From Desulforamulus ferrireducens (GTDB taxonomy: Bacteria > Bacillota > Desulfotomaculia > Desulfotomaculales > Desulfotomaculaceae), in NCBI RefSeq assembly GCF_002005145.1, contig NZ_CP019698.1, positions 1,488,001 through 1,552,000 of the forward strand: DNA of 64,000 bases. Reading direction: 5' to 3'. Under the pieces are notes generated by a model that made no database searches, had not been told where the DNA came from, and worked only from the letters and a program-made list of their open reading frames with translations. Position numbers and translations under genes: made by a program. Within the stretch, counting starts at the first letter, position 1; each line of letters opens with the position of its first letter. Shown one piece after another: positions 218-8,563 of the stretch.

Positions 218-465
218 TACCCAGCCCCCTTTCCATTGATAAATTGAACCTTTAACATAACCATCTGTTCAAGAAAGCCATGTCAAAGGTCCTGCCACTC
301 TTTGAATTATATGAGAGAAGCTTCTGGCTGTCAATTAATTATCAGGCATTAGGGCCTTCTTTCAAAACGGGTTAGAAAGCGGTAAAATATTGTTGTCCTA
401 TGTCATTATCTGATAAATTTAGACTATCCAGGTTTGTTAACAAAAATAACCAGAAGGAGCTTTTA

Positions 466-1257
466 ATGAATAGATTGGTTGTGGTAAAGGGTGCTGGGGA
501 TATGGCTACCGGTATTGCCCATCGCTTACATCGCAGTGGATTTCGAGTAATTACTACAGAATTAGCCAAGCCAACTGTTATTCGCCGCACGGTGGCCTTT
601 GCTGAAGCCATCTATGAAGGCAAAGTAGTGGTGGAGCAAGTTACGGCAGTAAAAACAGCACTGGCAAATGCAAGGAAGGTGGCGGAGGAGGGTTACGTGC
701 CGGTGGTGGTTGATCCCGAAGGGGTAGTGATTAAGGAGTTAAGGCCCTGGGCGGTGGTGGATGCCATTTTGGCTAAACGCAACACTGGTACCAAGATAAG
801 CGACGCCCCGGTGGTGGTAGCTGTGGGTCCAGGTTTTACTGCCGGTGAGGATGTCCATGCAGTGATAGAGAGTATGCGGGGACATTTTTTGGGTCGGGTT
901 ATATATAGTGGGCAGGCGTTGCCCAATACAGGTTGTCCTGGTGAGATAGGAGGCTATACCAAGGAAAGAATTTTACGGGCTCCCTGTGCGGGAGTATTTC
1001 AGGCCAAGCGACAAATTTGCGAACCGGTTACCGCTGGGGAAACCGTGGCCTGGGTTAACCAAGTGCCCGTGGTGGCAGCTGTTTCCGGGGTGTTGCGGGG
1101 GCTATTAAAGGATGGTTTGACAGTGGAAAGGGGTATGAAGATTGGTGATATTGACCCCCGCTGTGAGCCCGAGCATTGTTTCACCATTTCGGATAAAGCC
1201 AGAGCTATAGGTGGCGGTGTATTGGAAGCACTACTCTACTACGCCGCCAGGGAATAA
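466..1257 (+). CDS. yqeB: Selenium-dependent molybdenum hydroxylase accessory protein YqeB
   Basis: A 263-residue protein starting at ATG 466, with AGAAGGAGC eight bases upstream; an in-frame ATG at 400 has no ribosome binding site. The N-terminus has a nucleotide-binding-like VVKGAGDMATGIAHRL. The C-terminal half has PGEIGGYTKERILRAPCAGV and ends in GGGVLEALL, typical of the YqeB (EF2563) family. This family accompanies selenium-dependent molybdenum hydroxylases and is thought to help mature their Se-containing molybdenum cofactor; the biochemical step is not settled. It is followed closely by yqeC, a molybdopterin-binding protein gene and mocA, so the four probably form one maturation operon. 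The hydroxylase itself is not in the window. Confidence 0.85.
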   Translation: MNRLVVVKGAGDMATGIAHRLHRSGFRVITTELAKPTVIRRTVAFAEAIYEGKVVVEQVTAVKTALANARKVAEEGYVPVVVDPEGVVIKELRPWAVVDAILAKRNTGTKISDAPVVVAVGPGFTAGEDVHAVIESMRGHFLGRVIYSGQALPNTGCPGEIGGYTKERILRAPCAGVFQAKRQICEPVTAGETVAWVNQVPVVAAVSGVLRGLLKDGLTVERGMKIGDIDPRCEPEHCFTISDKARAIGGGVLEALLYYAARE

Positions 1258-1278
1258 AAAAGAGGGGTGAAGACTTTT

Positions 1279-2127
1279 TTGCCAACTCTCACACCATTTA
1301 ATTGGCAGAAATTCCTAAGGAATCTGCCCTTTCCCAGGGTAGTGACCCTGATTGGCGGAGGAGGTAAAACAGGACTCCTCTATTTCCTGTTGAACCATTT
1401 ACAAGCTTTGGGAATGGAAGCAGTGGCAGCTACCACCACCAAAATGTCCGGTTTACGAAGCCAGAGCGGTTTTGTCGAGGTCAAGAACCTTACAGAAGCT
1501 GCTGAGCTGTTACAGCAGCGGAGACAGAGGCCAGAACCGTTGACGCTGGTTGGCGGCAGAGATAGCCAGCAGCCAGATAAAATGGTGGGCATACCCGGGG
1601 CTTGGCTGGATCAACTGGCTACGGAGTTTCCCAACACCTTTTTTCTCATTGAGGGAGATGGCTCCGCTGGCCGCTCCCTCAAGGGTCACTTAGCCCATGA
1701 ACCGGTAATTCCCCAAAGCACTGGATTGGTGGTGCCTGTCATTGGCTTTGATGTGCTGGGAGCATCACTAAATAGCAACAATGTACATCGTCCCGAGAGA
1801 GTAACGCAAATGACTGGCCAGCCGCCGGAAAGTACCGTCACCATCGAGTTGGTTTTACGGTTGTTGTTACATCCTGAGGGTTATTTGAGGCGTTGCCCTC
1901 CCCATAGTCAAATTTTGCCCTTCATTAATAAAGTGGAAAGGGCAGCGGCTTTAGGCCAGGCTCAGCAGCTGGCCGCAGGTATCCTGGCCAGCCAACAGGC
2001 TCAAATTAAAAGGGTAGTAATGGGGAGCACAGTGCGGCAGGAGTTTTATTGTTTGACTAGCAAAGGAACGCTAAACCCCAGGGAAAATATACGTCCTTCT
2101 CAGGCAAGGAGGTTTTATGACCATTAA
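1279..2127 (+). CDS. yqeC: Selenium-dependent hydroxylase accessory protein YqeC
   Basis: About 282 residues. The reading frame opens at GTG 1267, but the GGGGTGA ribosome site at 1264-1270 fits best with TTG 1279. Near the N-terminus VTLIGGGGKTGLLYFLLNHL is the P-loop-like signature of YqeC. The middle has FLIEGDGSAGRSLKGHLAHE and the C-terminal half FINKVERAAALGQAQQLA (G-protein-like NK motif). YqeC proteins are putative nucleotide-binding factors for the labile selenium-containing cofactor of molybdenum hydroxylases. The 3' end overlaps the next gene by 11 bases, which indicates translational coupling. The exact reaction is unknown for the family. Confidence 0.82.
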   Translation: MPTLTPFNWQKFLRNLPFPRVVTLIGGGGKTGLLYFLLNHLQALGMEAVAATTTKMSGLRSQSGFVEVKNLTEAAELLQQRRQRPEPLTLVGGRDSQQPDKMVGIPGAWLDQLATEFPNTFFLIEGDGSAGRSLKGHLAHEPVIPQSTGLVVPVIGFDVLGASLNSNNVHRPERVTQMTGQPPESTVTIELVLRLLLHPEGYLRRCPPHSQILPFINKVERAAALGQAQQLAAGILASQQAQIKRVVMGSTVRQEFYCLTSKGTLNPRENIRPSQARRFYDH

Positions 2128-3142
2128 AAAAGTCAAGGTTGAAGATGCGGTGGGGATGGTGCTGGGGCACGAACTAACTAAAATTGTGCCGGGAAGTTAC
2201 AAGGGTCCAGCCTTCCGTAAGGGACACATAATTAAGGAAGAGGATATGCCCTACCTAAAGGACATAGGTAAGGAACATATCTACCTTATAGAATTGAGTG
2301 AGGGTCAACTGCATGAAAATGATGCCGCCCTCCGCCTTGCCCAAGCTGTGGCCGGTTCCAATGTTGAGTGTACCGACCCCTCCGAGGGACGGGTAAATTT
2401 AAGGGCTAAAATATCAGGCTTACTCAAGATCAAGGAACAGGCAGTGGCAGAAGTAAATGAGATAGAAAATGTGGCTTTTTCCACCAAACATGCCAACCTA
2501 CTGGTGCAACCTGGGGATTTGGTGGCTGCTGTTAAAATTATACCTTTGGTAATTGATGAGAGTTCTGTGGTGAGTGTAGAAAACATGGCTCTCAAATATC
2601 AGGAAATCGTCCAGGTACGCCCACTGTCGCCAATGAAAGTAGGTACGGTAATCACTGGCAATGAAGTATACTACGGACGGATACAAGATAAGTATGCCCC
2701 AGTGATTGCTGATAAGGTGCGACATTACGGAGCCATCCCCATGGGCGTTATTTATCAGCCCGATGATGCCAAGGCCATTACCGATTCTATACTGCAACAC
2801 ATTCAGGAGGGGGCGGATATTGTCATAGCTGCCGGAGGCATGTCGGTGGATCCTGATGATGTGACACCTGAGGCCATCCGTGCCACCGGGGCAGAAGTTA
2901 TCACCTATGGTAGCCCGGTGCTGCCAGGAGCTATGTTTATGCTGGCCTATTTAGAGGAAACAGCCATTCTTGGTCTGCCAGCCTGCGGCATGTTTGCCAA
3001 AACAACAGTACTCGATTTGCTCTTCCCACGTATCCTAGCCGGTGAACGCCTCACTAGAAAAGATATTGCAGCCTTAGGTTACGGGGGATTATGTAGTAAC
3101 TGCTCCTCCTGCACCTATCCTCACTGCCCCTTTGGCAAATAA
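2117..3142 (+). CDS. Molybdopterin-binding (MoeA/MogA-fold) protein with C-terminal Cys cluster
   Basis: A 341-residue protein with ATG 2117 inside the end of yqeC and an AAGGAGG ribosome site. Residues ~1-160 resemble the N-terminal part of MoeA-like proteins. Residues ~170-300 form a MoCF-biosynthesis domain: VGTVITGNEVYYG, then IVIAAGGMSVDPDDVTPEAI (the GGxSxxxxD pterin-binding loop), then GLPACGMFAKTT. The C-terminus carries CSNCSSCTYPHC, four closely spaced cysteines that could bind a metal or Fe-S cluster. In this operon it probably handles molybdopterin for the selenium-dependent hydroxylase rather than acting as housekeeping MoeA. Confidence 0.8.
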   Translation: MTIKKVKVEDAVGMVLGHELTKIVPGSYKGPAFRKGHIIKEEDMPYLKDIGKEHIYLIELSEGQLHENDAALRLAQAVAGSNVECTDPSEGRVNLRAKISGLLKIKEQAVAEVNEIENVAFSTKHANLLVQPGDLVAAVKIIPLVIDESSVVSVENMALKYQEIVQVRPLSPMKVGTVITGNEVYYGRIQDKYAPVIADKVRHYGAIPMGVIYQPDDAKAITDSILQHIQEGADIVIAAGGMSVDPDDVTPEAIRATGAEVITYGSPVLPGAMFMLAYLEETAILGLPACGMFAKTTVLDLLFPRILAGERLTRKDIAALGYGGLCSNCSSCTYPHCPFGK

Positions 3143-3143
3143 G

Positions 3144-3755
3144 ATGGTTTCTGCTGTATTGCTGGCTGCGGGGCAGGCTAGGCGCATGGGGCAGCCCAAG
3201 CAATTACTGCCCCTGGACGGCAAGCCAATGGTGTGGCAGGTTGCGTCGGCGGCCTGTGGGGCAGACCTGTTAGAGGTGGTGGCAGTTACCGGTGCCGCCG
3301 GGGAAGACGTGGGACTGGCCTTGGCAGATTTACCTTTGCGCATTATCCATAATGAAAATTGGTCAAACGGACAAGCCAGTACCATTAGACTGGCAGTTCA
3401 GTCCCTGGATACCAGGGCCAAGGCTGTGTTGTTTCTCTTGGCAGATCAACCGCTGGTGAATAAAGCTCTGATTAATAATTTGGTCAAGGCCTACCGGGAA
3501 AGTGGTGCCAGCCTGGTGGTACCTCGCTGGCAAAACCAAAGGGGTAATCCCACACTTTTTGATCTTAGCCGCTGGCGCACAGAACTACTGCAGCTGACAG
3601 GGGATCAAGGGGCTAGGGGGATTCTAGCCGCCCACCCCCAGTGTATCCACTATGTGGATTTGCCTGGGCCGGAGATATTGCTGGATGTGGACACCCCGGA
3701 AGAATATTGGCAGATGCAACAGCTATGGCAGCAATATAAGGTAACTAAGGGATAG
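3144..3755 (+). CDS. mocA: MocA/MobA-like molybdenum cofactor nucleotidyltransferase
   Basis: A 203-residue NTP-transferase. ATG 3144 directly follows the stop of the previous gene; an in-frame TTG at 3132 is possible, but neither has a clear ribosome site, so translation is probably coupled. VLLAAGQARRMGQPKQLLPL is the nucleotide-binding LAAGxxxRMGxxK motif, and FLLADQPLVNKALI supplies the metal-binding Asp. The sequence RWQNQRGNPTLFD matches the substrate loop of MocA, which transfers CMP to molybdopterin for xanthine-dehydrogenase-type enzymes. The operon setting supports cofactor supply to a molybdenum hydroxylase. MobA (GMP transfer) is the less likely alternative. Confidence 0.82.
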   Translation: MVSAVLLAAGQARRMGQPKQLLPLDGKPMVWQVASAACGADLLEVVAVTGAAGEDVGLALADLPLRIIHNENWSNGQASTIRLAVQSLDTRAKAVLFLLADQPLVNKALINNLVKAYRESGASLVVPRWQNQRGNPTLFDLSRWRTELLQLTGDQGARGILAAHPQCIHYVDLPGPEILLDVDTPEEYWQMQQLWQQYKVTKG

Positions 3756-3779: not shown

Positions 3780-4991
3780 ATGGATCAAATCAAATGGCAA
3801 GCCAACGAAATGTTGGGAAAGGAAAAAGTATCGCTGGATTTTTTTAGTCAAAGGGAAATACAAAAGGTCAGACAATTTCACCAGAGTTTTCCTGAATATA
3901 GTATTACTCCGCTGCGCAGTCTGGCAAACTTAGCAAAATATCTGGGGGTAGCAGGTATTTACGTCAAGGATGAATCCTATCGCTTTGGTTTAAATGCCTT
4001 TAAAGTACTGGGGGCCTCCTTTGCCATGGGTAAGTATCTGGCTCAAAAACTTGGTAAAGATATTGGAGAAATGGATTACCATACCTTGACCTCCGAGGAA
4101 ACCAGTCGCGCCCTAGGGGAAATTACCTTTGCCACCACCACCGATGGCAACCATGGTCGGGGAGTAGCTTGGACTGCCAACCGCTTAAAACAAAAATCGG
4201 TGGTATATATGCCCAAGGGTACTTCCCAGATCCGTTTGGCCAATATTCGAGCCGAGGGAGCGGAGGCATCCATCGTAGATATGAATTACGATGACGCAGT
4301 ACGAATGACAGCGGCAAAGGCTCAAAAATATGGTTGGGTAATTGTACAAGATACTGCCTGGGAAGGCTACGAAGAAATCCCCACCTGGATCATGCAAGGT
4401 TACGGGACCATGGCCGCGGAAGCACTGGAGCAACTTAGGCAGCTGCAGGTGGAAAGACCCACCCATGTCTTTGTGCAGGCAGGGGTTGGTACCCTGGCTG
4501 GGGCAGTACAAGGCTATTTTGCCTCGGTATTCGGTAAAGATTGCCCTAAAACTGTCATTGTAGAAGCAGATAAGGCCGATTGCCATTACAAATCAGCAGT
4601 GGCCAAGGATGGCAAGCCCAGAACGGTGAGCGGGGATCTGGACACCATCATGGCCGGTCTGGCCTGTGGCGAACCCAACATCATCAGCTGGCGGATATTA
4701 AGGGATTACAGCGAGATGTTCTTTTCCTGCCCCGATTGGCTAGCCGCCAAGGGCATGCGCCTGCTGGGCAACCCCTTGGGCGACGACCTGCGGGTAATTT
4801 CCGGCGAATCCGGAGCTGTTACAGCCGGCCTCTTATTTGAGCTACTGACCAGCAAGGACTTGGCAGAAGCCAAAGCTAAATTGGGTCTGAACAAAGATTC
4901 TCAAATTCTTCTCTTTAGCACCGAAGGAGATACCGACCCAGAGCACTATCGCAGTGTGGTATGGGATGGTAGATATCCCAGTTACAGATAA
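3780..4991 (+). CDS. dpaL: Diaminopropionate ammonia-lyase (PLP enzyme)
   Basis: A 403-residue protein close to the family length of about 400, starting at ATG 3780 after GAGAGGTGC. It is a fold-type II PLP enzyme. The Schiff-base Lys is in RFGLNAFKVLGAS, the phosphate-side loop is TTTDGNHGRGVAW, and the C-terminus has LLFSTEGDTDPEHY. Diaminopropionate ammonia-lyase converts 2,3-diaminopropionate to pyruvate and two ammonia via aminoacrylate. YgeX of enteric bacteria is the close relative and sits among yge/yqe genes for anaerobic purine use. The placement after yqeB-yqeC-mocA mirrors that arrangement. Confidence 0.88.
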   Translation: MDQIKWQANEMLGKEKVSLDFFSQREIQKVRQFHQSFPEYSITPLRSLANLAKYLGVAGIYVKDESYRFGLNAFKVLGASFAMGKYLAQKLGKDIGEMDYHTLTSEETSRALGEITFATTTDGNHGRGVAWTANRLKQKSVVYMPKGTSQIRLANIRAEGAEASIVDMNYDDAVRMTAAKAQKYGWVIVQDTAWEGYEEIPTWIMQGYGTMAAEALEQLRQLQVERPTHVFVQAGVGTLAGAVQGYFASVFGKDCPKTVIVEADKADCHYKSAVAKDGKPRTVSGDLDTIMAGLACGEPNIISWRILRDYSEMFFSCPDWLAAKGMRLLGNPLGDDLRVISGESGAVTAGLLFELLTSKDLAEAKAKLGLNKDSQILLFSTEGDTDPEHYRSVVWDGRYPSYR

Positions 4992-5107
4992 AAGGTATAT
5001 ATTTCGCAAACTAACTAAAATTAGTCTTGTGTACAATGCAAAGTTTTGGTAATCTAGTATCCGTATTCCAAGATATCAAAGACATAACAGGAATCGGAGG
5101 CGATACT

Positions 5108-5485
5108 ATGAAAACTATCATTCACACTGACAAGGCTCCCGCAGCCATTGGTCCCTATTCCCAAGCCGTTAAAGCTGGTGGTTTTATCTTTGTTTCCGGT
5201 CAAATTCCCGTCAACCCTGCCACCGGTGAAGTGGTAGAAGGTGGTGTGGAGGCACAAACCAAACAAGTGCTGGAAAATCTCACTGCCATTTTAAACAGTC
5301 AGGGCGTAGGTCTAGATGCTGTTGTGAAGACCTCTGTCTTTATTAAAGACATGAACGATTTCCAAAAGATCAACGCCATCTATGGGGAGTATTTTAAGAG
5401 TGAACATCCTGCCAGAGCTTGTGTGGAAGTAGCCAGACTGCCCAAGGATGTATTAGTAGAAATCGAAGCCATTGCTATAGCCTAA
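5108..5485 (+). CDS. ridA: RidA family reactive intermediate/imine deaminase
   Basis: A 125-residue protein from ATG 5108 with CGGAGGC nine bases upstream; the frame is open further upstream but without a usable start. It has the full RidA signature: [17 protein letters not shown] at the N-terminus, [16 protein letters not shown], and near the C-terminus [20 protein letters not shown] with the substrate-binding Arg and Glu. RidA hydrolyses 2-aminoacrylate/imine intermediates released by PLP enzymes. It lies 116 bases after dpaL, whose reaction passes through aminoacrylate, so the two are probably functionally linked. Confidence 0.92.
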
Positions 5486-5591: not shown

Positions 5592-6933
5592 CTAACAACA
5601 GGGAGGTGCAAAATGCCGCCAAGGCTTTACCCAAACCTCTAAACCATCAAAGGGATTGGCGGTACCTAGATACAAATCACAGTCTTGCGAAAGGAAAAGC
5701 ATGCGTACACCATAGTTATGAATATTTCCTAAACCGTTTAAGGACACAGGTTCCCAGTGGATACCATCACGGGTTTTCCATAAATCAAAACCCAGGGTTT
5801 TACGGCCGATTCTTAATAAAAATTCGGCAATTCTTTGCAATATTTCTTCAATGGGCAGCTGTGCAAATAAAGGGTCCACTTGGGTGATATATTTCCAGTA
5901 TTCCAAGAGAGCCTGTTGATAACCTTTGGTATTGATGGCCAGCAGTTCTCTCAAAATCTCCGGTAGTAGGGGGATAAAATAAGGAATGAGCACTGACCAG
6001 CTAAAAGTACCTAGATAAAGCTCGTCGCCCTGGGCTTGCAGTTGCCAGCAGTAGGCGTTAGAGATATTACCAAAGCCAGAGGGAAAGCCGCTGAGGGGTA
6101 ATCCCCTGGTGCCAGTGGTGGGTTGTGTGGGTACCACTGGTATGCCACCTACCACCAGTTCCCAATTGTCATGGCGGTCGATACGAATAACATCAAAGCC
6201 TTTGGGGGGTACAATGCGTTGGTCGGGATTTAGACTGAGTACTGCCGCTTCAATGGCCGTGCCGATATAAATATAGTCCTTAAAGACCGCCAGAGCCCAG
6301 GGATGTTCGTTTCTGGCATCGCCGGCCCCCTTATCCACCACCAGCTTCCAATTATCCTTAACTGGTTCATCGCCTCGGGTACGCCAAATTTCAAAACCGG
6401 TGGGAAGGCCAGTGCCTACATACAGATGGTTATTATAACTTAGTAAAAGATCAAGATTCCCCCGTGGGTTTTTATCTGGATGACCGTTTACATCCACCAA
6501 TTGCCAGCCCTCTCTCTCAGGGTCGCTACTGCAGTAAAGTTGGAAGTTAGCTAAACCGGTCAAGGGCAAGGCACCCATATATAGTTTCCCCTTGTGTTCC
6601 ACCATATAGCGGGTGGAATAGCCCTGAATACCGCTGTCCAATATCTTCCAATTAACACCGTCAGTGGATTTTACAGATTTCCCCGCGCATAATGACATTT
6701 TGCGGAGTTAGTTCCTCTGGTATTGGGATATCTCCAAAAACTTGATTACTAAAGATTGAGTAGGGAATGTTGCGGGCGGTACCTACATAGATATAGCCGT
6801 CCATCTCCGTCATAGACCAGGCATAGTTATTTTGCATGGCATTATCTGGGTTGGCAGCATCCAATCCATTGACGGGGGTAATCTTTTTAAAATTACTAAA
6901 CACACAATCGAAGGCCTTATTAACATCTTTCAT
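5592..6933 (-). pseudogene. Frameshifted beta-propeller-like hypothetical protein
   Basis: Two overlapping minus-strand reading frames (6661-6933 and 5592-6698) together encode one protein of about 446 residues. Reading through the AAAA run (6669-6672 on the plus strand) with one A fewer joins GEICK to STDGVNW, giving the usual KSTDGVNW motif. Repeats of the pattern LYxGTxxxxxGxEIWRTxDGxxW occur throughout (YVGTARNIPY, LYVGTGLPTGFEIWRTRGD, YIYIGTAIEA, LYLGTFSW, LYLGTANPFDGLEVW), typical of Kelch/sialidase-like beta-propellers. No signal peptide is evident. Function is unknown. The single-base shift could be a real mutation or a sequencing error. Confidence 0.65.
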
Positions 6934-7079
6934 AGGATCTCACCCTTTTTGCCATATCCTATGAAAATTTTGCCAATATGGTTACATTAGAAAAACTTGG
7001 CTTGCGCCAAGTCCCTTAGGATGCAGGTGGAATTTTCTATCCTTTCATCATATAGAAGTCTTATGCTTTCCGAAGGGAA

Positions 7080-7110
7080 TAAAAAAACTGACACCTATTT
7101 AAGGTGCCAG
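7080..7110 (-). terminator. Terminator after the DsbA-like selenoprotein gene
   Basis: On the minus strand CTGGCACCT-TAAAT-AGGTGTCAG (one G-U pair) is followed by seven T residues. The stop codon of the DsbA-like gene lies in the hairpin. Confidence 0.75.
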
Positions 7111-7704
7111 ATATTGCTCTATTGCTTTTTTGAAAGTAGCGTAAGTTTGTGCTCCAACAATCCTTTTTTCATCTTGCAAGATGAAAGTGGGTAAACCCGT
7201 TACCTGCCACTTTTGGCCAGACTTACGGTTATCCTCCAATTGTTTTTCCCATCTAGCATCCTCCAAGGCGGCTGCCATTTGGGCTTTATCCATACCCAGG
7301 GATGCGGCAATACCGAGAATTACCTCGCGGGAGCCAATGTTGAGTCCTTCGCTAAAATAGGCATGAAAAACAGCGGCGTGAAACTCCTCAAAGAGTCCCT
7401 GTTCCTTAGCGTATTCCGTAGCCTTTAGCGCCAGTTTGGTATTGGGTAAAAAGCTCACCGGCCGGAAGACTATACCATATTCAGCCCCCAATTTATTAAA
7501 ACGTTCGTTGGCAGCCACCGGGTCAAAATCGGGGAATAACTTAGCCAGATCTTCACCCTCCGCCGGTCTTTCCGGTCGTAGTTCATAACCCACCCAGGTG
7601 ATATTTAGTGGGTACTCTTGGGAAAGTTTGTCGACAATACCTTTGCCGATATAGCAAAAGGGTCAGGCATAGTCGGAGTAAATTGTGAGATTAAGGGAAG
7701 TCAT
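7099..7704 (-). CDS. DsbA/FrnE-like thioredoxin-fold protein with in-frame UGA, predicted selenoprotein
   Basis: From ATG 7704 (GAGGTGA six bases upstream) the minus strand reads MTSLNLTIYSDYA, then UGA at 7665-7663, then PFCYIGKGIVDKLS and on without a break to 7099: 201 residues counting the UGA codon. DsbA-family FrnE-type oxidoreductases have SDYxCPxCYxG here, so the UGA occupies the first active-site Cys (UxxC). The rest matches the family: YELRPERPAEGEDL, the helical insert, and the cis-Pro region VTGLPTFILQDEKRIVGAQ. A SECIS-like stem-loop lies 14 bases past the UGA. A conventional caller would start it at 7593 and miss the active site. It is probably a cytoplasmic thiol oxidoreductase or isomerase, since no signal peptide is seen. 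A recent nonsense mutation is the alternative but is less likely given the RBS, motif and stem-loop. Confidence 0.85.
7632..7665 (-). promoter_or_regulatory. Candidate bacterial SECIS element in the DsbA-like gene
   Basis: Downstream of UGA (7665-7663) come 14 bases, then CGGCAA-AGGUA-UUGUCG: six pairs (one G-U) closing a five-base loop with G at its second and third positions. UGA-to-loop distance is 20 bases. Known bacterial SECIS hairpins, such as that of E. coli fdhF with an AGGUCU loop, have a short stem about 11 or more bases after UGA and a G early in the loop. The alternative hairpin CCUUU(U)GC/GCAAAGG closer to the UGA overlaps it. Confidence 0.6.
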
Positions 7705-7762
7705 CTGTTCACCTCGATATCTTTTCATTAAGAAAGCCTTGGCCAGTCAAAGGCAAAGCTTT

Positions 7763-8563
7763 TTACTTCACATATTTCCGATAAGCCAAATGATTGGTGG
7801 GGCCGGTAAACTTATTAAAGGGGAAAGAGTGGCGAATGGCTGCTGTAATAAATTCCTTGGCCACCCGCATGGCTTCCCTGACCGAATTGCCCTTAGCCAA
7901 CTCGGCTGTGATGGCTGCAGAATAGGTGCAGCCTGCACCGTGGGTGTAGGATGTGTTAATTCTATCTCCCTCAAGAATCTCAAAGGTTTGTCCATCGTAG
8001 AACAAATCGATGGCTTTTTCGTGTTCTATGCGAGAGCCACCTTTAATTACCACATACTTAGCTCCCAAAGCGTGAATTTTTTTGGCAGCTTCCTTCATTT
8101 CCTCTATGGTTTTAATGGGAGCCTGCTGACTAAGCTGTGCTGCTTCAAATAAGTTGGGTGTGACCACGGTGGCCCGGGGAACCAAAACTTCCCTTAGGCT
8201 CTTGGCATTATCCGGGTCTAAAACTGTATCGTCTCCTTTGCAAATCATAACCGGGTCTACCACAACGTTTTCTATTTTATATTCATCTATAGTTTGGGCT
8301 GCTAATTCAATTAACTCAGTTGAACCGAGCATACCGGTTTTCATAGCATTAACACCGATGGAAAGAATGGTGTTTAATTGAGATTTGACAATCTCCTTGG
8401 CTTGTGGAAAGACGTTGTGCTGCCAAGTATCTGGATCCATAGAAACAATGGTAGTAATGGCTGACATACCGTAAACACCGAGCTCCTGGAAAGTTTTTAA
8501 ATCTGCTTGAAGCCCGGCGCCTCCGCTGCTGTCTGAACCGGCGATGGTTAGTGCTTTGTACAT
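7763..8563 (-). CDS. pdxK: Pyridoxal/pyridoxine kinase of the ThiD-like PdxK family
   Basis: A 266-residue ribokinase-fold enzyme; ATG 8563 follows AAAGGGG. The N-terminus LTIAGSDSSGGAGLQADLKT is the ThiD/PdxK substrate-binding signature. VYGMSAITTIVSMDPDTW and VVDPVMICKGDDTVL are closer to Bacillus PdxK than to ThiD. The catalytic anion hole and Asp are in NTSYTHGAGCTYSAAI. It phosphorylates pyridoxal or pyridoxine, and some members also phosphorylate hydroxymethylpyrimidine, so ThiD activity cannot be excluded. It is transcribed toward the selenoprotein gene 58 bases downstream and could be co-transcribed with it. PLP is needed by selenocysteine synthase (SelA) and DpaL, but any link is speculative. 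Confidence 0.85.
   Translation of the reverse strand: MYKALTIAGSDSSGGAGLQADLKTFQELGVYGMSAITTIVSMDPDTWQHNVFPQAKEIVKSQLNTILSIGVNAMKTGMLGSTELIELAAQTIDEYKIENVVVDPVMICKGDDTVLDPDNAKSLREVLVPRATVVTPNLFEAAQLSQQAPIKTIEEMKEAAKKIHALGAKYVVIKGGSRIEHEKAIDLFYDGQTFEILEGDRINTSYTHGAGCTYSAAITAELAKGNSVREAMRVAKEFITAAIRHSFPFNKFTGPTNHLAYRKYVK

Follow-up and report, generated by a model that had tools for sequence, protein, structure and literature searches.

A predicted selenocysteine-containing FrnE-type member of the DsbA family in Desulforamulus ferrireducens

Described DsbA-like selenoproteins and FrnE proteins

It has been known since 2005–2006 that DsbA-like selenoproteins with a UxxC motif exist. Nine such sequences from the Sargasso Sea were assigned to COG2761 (PMC1088965), a DsbA-like selenoprotein was listed for Desulfotomaculum reducens in 2006 (PMC1794560), the selenoproteins of the GOS data include DsbA types 1–3 (PMC2398784), a 'DsbA-like' selenoprotein also appears in PMC9312934, and a 2026 review places 'DsbA-like protein form 1' among the families predicted with high confidence (PMC13188914). 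A term search of the main text of the deep-Sep paper found neither DsbA nor FrnE (PMC12013277). In this study, we analysed a gene within a 64,000-nucleotide stretch of the D. ferrireducens genome, referred to here as the window. Set beside the published descriptions of the DsbA-like selenoprotein (PF01323/COG2761), it shares the DSBA domain, a Sec in the first position of UxxC and a SECIS right after the UGA, and in these descriptions we found no difference in kind. We therefore regard the gene as a well-supported further member and not as a new kind of selenoprotein; with its relatives, it adds well-supported members to a family for which the relevant passages of the literature give computational prediction only. 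D. reducens is probably a congener of the source organism, and its DsbA-like selenoprotein may well be the orthologue of the protein described here.

Algae of the Mamiellophyceae are eukaryotic hosts, and their SECIS is of another kind. A Sec-containing FrnE has been reported from them (PMC6627142), so that they and our gene share a selenoprotein of this name. Among proteins with a solved structure, FrnE of Deinococcus radiodurans is the nearest to the D. ferrireducens protein by sequence (E about 1e-19), and the same was found by fold: an AlphaFold2 model, in which Sec was modelled as Cys (mean pLDDT 95.8, pTM 0.90), returned D. radiodurans FrnE structures, 5cnw, 5co3 and 5cp1 among them, as the five best Foldseek matches (TMq 0.87–0.89, 27–28% identity), followed by SCO1869 of Streptomyces coelicolor. 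The position of the CPxC motif is also shared, although D. radiodurans FrnE has a Cys where Sec is present here and carries near its C terminus a CX4C to which regeneration of the active site is ascribed (PMC8945050) and which is missing from our protein. It is stated in the same source that CX4C occurs in many but not all FrnE members, and FrnE proteins without it are named there.

The Pfam DSBA domain scored 119 bits against a cut-off of 25.6, and this domain is accompanied by a CPxC-type motif (here UPFC) and the conserved Pro. The FrnE assignment made in a preliminary description of this DNA holds both by sequence and by fold. COG2761 is, as we take it, the FrnE group. In a 43-row alignment (A1), T89, P172 and G184 are invariant, as are D11 to Y18, although the invariance of residues 11–18 is partly built in because DYACPFCY was among the patterns used for finding the rows; Pro172 is presumably the cis-Pro expected of a thioredoxin fold. 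A match to the DsbG-like/Rcas_1661 (seleno)lipoprotein family NF041057 was rejected, since it reached 46.2 bits against a cut-off of 190 and covered residues 78–197 only. No signal peptide was recognized by eye, and the enzyme is probably cytoplasmic.

We hold it to be very probable that the gene encodes a FrnE-type thiol-disulfide oxidoreductase of the DsbA family, in which Sec is the attacking residue of UPFC and the UGA is decoded with the help of SelB and a hairpin in the mRNA. Support for this comes from the coding frame, the Sec machinery genes, a UGA conserved at the catalytic position, a hairpin under selection and the predicted FrnE fold. The reading of UGA by SelB with Sec-tRNA(Sec) is the established manner of Sec decoding in bacteria. 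Here, SelB with its Sec-tRNA(Sec) would be recruited by the hairpin at 7649–7631 and would decode codon 14 as Sec. Sec14 would then act as the nucleophile on a substrate disulfide or another oxidised thiol, and Cys17 would resolve the mixed selenosulfide to give a Sec14–Cys17 selenenylsulfide. Since the protein lacks the C-terminal CX4C relay found in D. radiodurans FrnE, we suggest that the enzyme would be regenerated by an outside reductant, for example thioredoxin. By analogy with FrnE relatives and with Listeria Lmo1059, its role is likely to be repair, by reduction or isomerisation, when the cell is under thiol, oxidative or metal stress.

It is possible, though in our view doubtful, that the same selenoprotein acts as an oxidase, as an isomerase or on a small molecule, and not as a protein-disulfide reductase; low-molecular-weight disulfides, polysulfide or selenite are candidate small molecules that we likewise consider possible rather than probable. 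The wider fold family returned by Foldseek includes DsbA oxidases, kappa GST and HCCA isomerase. Moreover, Lmo1059, a DsbA-family protein that by its description shares the CPFC-type motif but has Cys and not Sec, reduces GSSG strongly and insulin weakly, and its first Cys is essential both for GSSG reduction and for diamide tolerance (PMC10715225). Against this, D. radiodurans FrnE, the closest solved relative, has been described as a disulfide reductase of the cytoplasm that also acts as an isomerase and reduces insulin (PMC8945050). The gene neighbourhood adds no conserved clue to the substrate or to an operon among 33 loci with flanks of up to 1.5 kb: leaving aside antisense frames of the gene, every group that recurs in at least three loci belongs to the kinase-gene region upstream in L018–L020. 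In the window, a pyridoxine/HMP-P kinase gene (7763–8563, minus strand) ends 58 bases upstream of the FrnE gene on the same strand, and the pair recurs in two congeners (L019, L020).

Reading of the in-frame UGA codon

The features of the gene are listed in the table below.

Table. Features of the predicted Sec-containing FrnE gene in the window
Feature	Position	Strand	Remarks
Predicted Sec-containing FrnE/DsbA-family oxidoreductase gene	7099..7704	-	201 residues plus stop; Sec14, Cys17, Pro172
UGA codon, residue 14 (Sec)	7663..7665	-	corresponds to the first active-site Cys in homologues
Cys17 codon (TGC), partner of Sec14 in UPFC	7654..7656	-	column C17 invariant in the 43-sequence alignment A1, in part built in because C17 belongs to the motif used for finding the rows
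Pro172 codon (VTGLPT)	7189..7191	-	column P172 invariant in alignment A1
Ribosome-binding site GAGGTG	7710..7715	-	spacing of 5 nt to ATG 7704
Intrinsic-terminator-like hairpin and T tract, gene end	7088..7110	-	consensus scan; one such site, where shuffles lead one to expect 2.3; weak by itself
Bacterial SECIS-like hairpin	7631..7649	-	7-bp stem UCGGCAA/UUGUCGA with one G-U, loop AGGUA

Translated from 7704 to 7099 on the minus strand, the gene reads MTSLNLTIYSDYA*PFCYIGKG..., its sole internal stop being the TGA of codon 14; when this TGA is read as U, the protein begins with MTSLNLTIYSDYA and continues as UPFCYIGKG.... Between the TGA and the TAA at 7101–7099 there are 187 sense codons. The preliminary description had pointed to an in-frame UGA in place of the first redox Cys, a ribosome-binding site in front of it and an open frame behind it, and had predicted that an ordinary ORF call would lose the active site, all of which was borne out. 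Indeed, the mechanical ORF list gives a start at GTG 7593 and a product of 164 aa from which the active site is missing, which makes the gene a clean case of truncation past the active site by a stop-codon-based ORF call.

The existence of this mechanical ORF would fit the view that the UGA is a true stop, with a 164-aa protein made from GTG 7593 and the upstream part serving as a leader peptide. We consider this very improbable, because Sec and Cys forms alike conserve the residues that flank the UGA (SDYxUPFCYIG), because a start codon is found 10–16 codons upstream of the TGA in 36 out of 36 TGA loci, and because the short form would lose strand 4–10 and helix 15–30 together with the active site.

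A hairpin after the UGA had also been put forward in the preliminary description. Its AGGUA loop and a spacing within the range of bacterial SECIS elements were confirmed, but the stem has 7 bp and not 6; it starts 13 nt past the UGA, the distance from the UGA to the loop being 20 nt. According to the legend of Fig 2 in PMC13188914, the bacterial SECIS model has a loop of 3–9 nt with a G in its first two positions, a stem of 4–16 bp, 16–37 nt between UGA and loop and a minimum free energy of -7.5 kcal/mol or lower. The hairpin agrees with the whole of this geometry (loop 5, stem 7 bp, G at loop position 2, 20 nt), whereas its energies, -5.9 kcal/mol for the isolated 19-mer (z -5.1) and -6.5 kcal/mol in a context of 36 nt, stay short of the published limit, which may refer to another stretch. 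When the 51 nt beginning with the UGA are folded, the best structure is another hairpin that contains the UGA itself; at -9.2 kcal/mol it lies beyond the limit, but in a different fold (z -1.3, with 20 of 200 shuffles as good). By folding energy alone, the case for a SECIS would be weak.

The evidence that carries the hairpin comes from codon usage. We compared 24 full-length Sec forms, that is, the window's own and 23 others that are 40% or more identical to it (22 of the 24 from the class and L124 and L125; the short L040 and L043 were excluded), whose median pairwise identity is 47% (range 35–97%). Codons 19–25 are nearly frozen in this set, with ATC, GGC and ATT each in 24/24 and GTC in 21 of the 21 that have Val. 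Their mean codon identity is 0.901 as against 0.376 ± 0.018 (maximum 0.440) in 1000 within-gene synonymous shuffles, none of which reaches the observed value. Among 181 seven-codon windows, those over codon 14 being skipped, codons 19–25 rank first, and the freezing is confined to the hairpin. These codons are flat in the 80 Cys homologues that served as a control (0.420 compared with 0.408 further along the gene). At least six of the seven stem pairs are kept in 29 of 36 TGA loci, and two-sided changes are seen at pair 6 (A-U replaced by G-C in L126 and by C-G in both L128 and L132) and at pair 2 (L132); four loci also show a one-sided change at pair 4, where G-U is replaced by G-C. Synonymous freezing, compensatory pairs and the flat Cys control show that the hairpin at 7649–7631 is selected as RNA and support its reading as a SECIS. 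The seven remaining TGA loci (L041, L042, L130, L133, L134, L137 and L144) have only four or five of the seven pairs and would need other hairpins.

The UGA-containing alternative fold was set aside because third positions vary freely in the 5' arm of that fold, while the frozen codons overlie the 7649–7631 hairpin (CCC/CCT/CCA/CCG in codon 15, TGC/TGT in codon 17). Nothing in Rfam exceeded the cut-offs over the hairpin stretch; two matches below their gathering scores were taken as chance.

The genome has all four genes of the Sec decoding machinery. SelA (624 bits), SelB (378 bits) and SelD (403 bits) are each above their curated cut-offs, which are exceeded in one, two and two of 14 control genomes, respectively. 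The tRNA-Sec gene (selC) reached 68.7 bits with the Rfam model against a gathering score of 47; this model is the least specific of the four, giving a signal in all 14 controls, over the cut-off in five of them, and a second place in the D. ferrireducens genome just reaches 47 bits with it. For this reason the ARAGORN result on the best match, a tRNA-Sec with anticodon tca, is the firmer evidence. One TGA is also present inside selD itself, and others in three formate-dehydrogenase-like (FdhA-like) genes, one of which is over its family cut-off.

The DNA by itself would be compatible with a UGA that is read as Trp or Cys by near-cognate suppression. This, too, is highly unlikely, since selA is above the cut-off in 35 of 37 TGA genomes, the two misses being genomes of 84% (G029) and 57% (G110) completeness, as opposed to 4 of 19 genomes whose match has no TGA; in the 16 of these 19 that were inspected (all but G233, G244 and G277) a Cys codon was read, and G336 was excluded from the comparison. 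In addition, the SECIS-like hairpin is frozen in the TGA forms tested, and no such freezing is seen in the Cys forms tested.

Selenocysteine and cysteine forms among relatives

The class sample comprised 113 genomes including that of D. ferrireducens. With E<=1e-20, 26 of them have a match, and exactly one TGA is present in each of the 26. With E<=0.001, 28 match, and in all 28 there is a TGA in the segment that covers the N terminus; the two added, G030 and G090, are broken remnants, and the match in G073 is divided between frames. None of the 113 class genomes yielded a Cys form. The enzyme is dispensable, as 85 of the 113 have no match at E<=0.001, among them G053 and G055, which are of the same genus and have selA. 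Of 398 genomes sampled across the phylum, 35 match at E<=1e-12; of these, 15 have a TGA and 19, including G177 with a TAA elsewhere, do not; in the remaining one, G336, the match lacks the N terminus. The N-terminal residues are kept in homologues, and over 132 loci the codon aligned with residue 14 is TGA in 36, TGT in 52 and TGC in 44 and nothing else. The 80 loci from the related-locus search favour Cys, one of its patterns having included the Cys codon; those from the genome search carry no such bias. In all 36 TGA-bearing loci mapped, the TGA falls on the active-site codon, which is more than chance, and since it is conserved across genera and families, the UGA is not a sequencing error. 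None of the refuting conditions named in the preliminary description was borne out.

That the gene is a pseudogene or an artefact, with a Cys codon mutated to TGA in a dead or wrongly sequenced frame, might be suggested by relatives that look decayed (G073 with a broken frame, the remnants in G090 and G030, G226 split between frames and L130 with an extra TAG), but this is extremely improbable and is largely refuted by the cross-genus conservation, with TGA at the same codon in 36 loci of many genera and families, the 187 codons behind it open and the silent positions over the hairpin under selection. In L130 (genome G150, from position 1191), a relative of the Sec-containing FrnE, the additional in-frame TAG was taken as decay because similarity is lost toward the C-terminal end as well. 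As judged from these sequences, the present analysis adds that in the class the gene either is kept with Sec or decays.

For DsbA-like selenoproteins, Table 1 of an earlier survey gives a single Cys-to-Sec event and a single loss (PMC1794560). Our tree of the relatives needs several Sec/Cys changes. It was built from 64 proteins, 33 with Sec (L130, L040 and L043, which are short or broken, were left out of the 36 Sec loci) and 31 with Cys (out of 96 Cys loci); it is unrooted, and changes were counted without direction. The Sec label requires seven changes on it, of which at least four are forced by the starred branches. A branch with moderate support (84/86) separates the 24 Sec forms that have the frozen hairpin, along with a long-branched Cys row, L148, from the rest; the other two full-length Sec forms of the class, L041 and L042, group with L131, L133, L134, L137 and L139 (96/93), and L126 (Sec) groups with L127 and L129 (Cys; 100/97). 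The genome of L127, G448, uses Cys although selA is retained. At L144 (1498–2199), a Sec form with UPFC and TGA stands amid Bacilli-type Cys FrnE proteins; it has kept the CX4C tail, its genome (G493) has selA, and it looks like an independent exchange. Because L144 stands apart among Cys proteins and L126 lies beside L127 and L129, Sec and Cys have been exchanged more than once.

No replacement of Sec by Cys was seen in the class. That FrnE is obligately a selenoenzyme in this lineage, being kept with Sec and otherwise decayed or absent, so that Sec may do something there that Cys cannot, we consider improbable. One form this idea may take is that of a relay-free FrnE in which Sec takes the place of the regenerating C-terminal CX4C disulfide. 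CX4C is present in 1 of 33 Sec forms as against 71 of 96 Cys forms, an association that is confounded by ancestry and by the way in which the Cys rows had been obtained: L144, the Sec form amid Bacilli-type proteins, keeps it, and 25 of 96 Cys forms lack it. The class, in which FrnE is found with Sec only, beside Cys-containing relatives in the same phylum, offers good ground for testing the benefit of Sec in a DsbA-type enzyme of anaerobes.

Other selenium-related and neighbouring genes in the window

It had further been proposed that yqeB and yqeC nearby point to selenium use. Both were confirmed by curated models and are over their cut-offs (yqeB at 400–1257, plus strand, TIGR03309, 381 bits; yqeC at 1267–2127, plus strand, TIGR03172, 144 bits), but the model names refer to the selenium-dependent molybdenum cofactor trait, which is a different use of selenium. 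The two genes open a row of selenium-dependent molybdenum hydroxylase maturation genes (400–3755, plus strand), in which a molybdenum cofactor synthesis domain protein and a MocA/YgfJ-like cytidylyltransferase (166 bits, cut-off 186) were also recognized, both below their cut-offs. The organism thus probably has the selenium-cofactor trait besides Sec.

Between this row and the FrnE gene there are two further regions. At 5592–6935 on the minus strand, an ORF (5592–6698) without an NCBIfam match is preceded in another frame by an open stretch from about 6933 that, by eye, reads like its N-terminal part, so that the gene looks frameshifted. Directly after the selenium-cofactor genes, there is a diaminopropionate ammonia-lyase (TIGR03528, 665 bits) and then a Rid-family hydrolase (TIGR00004, 187 bits), the pair occupying 3780–5485 on the plus strand.
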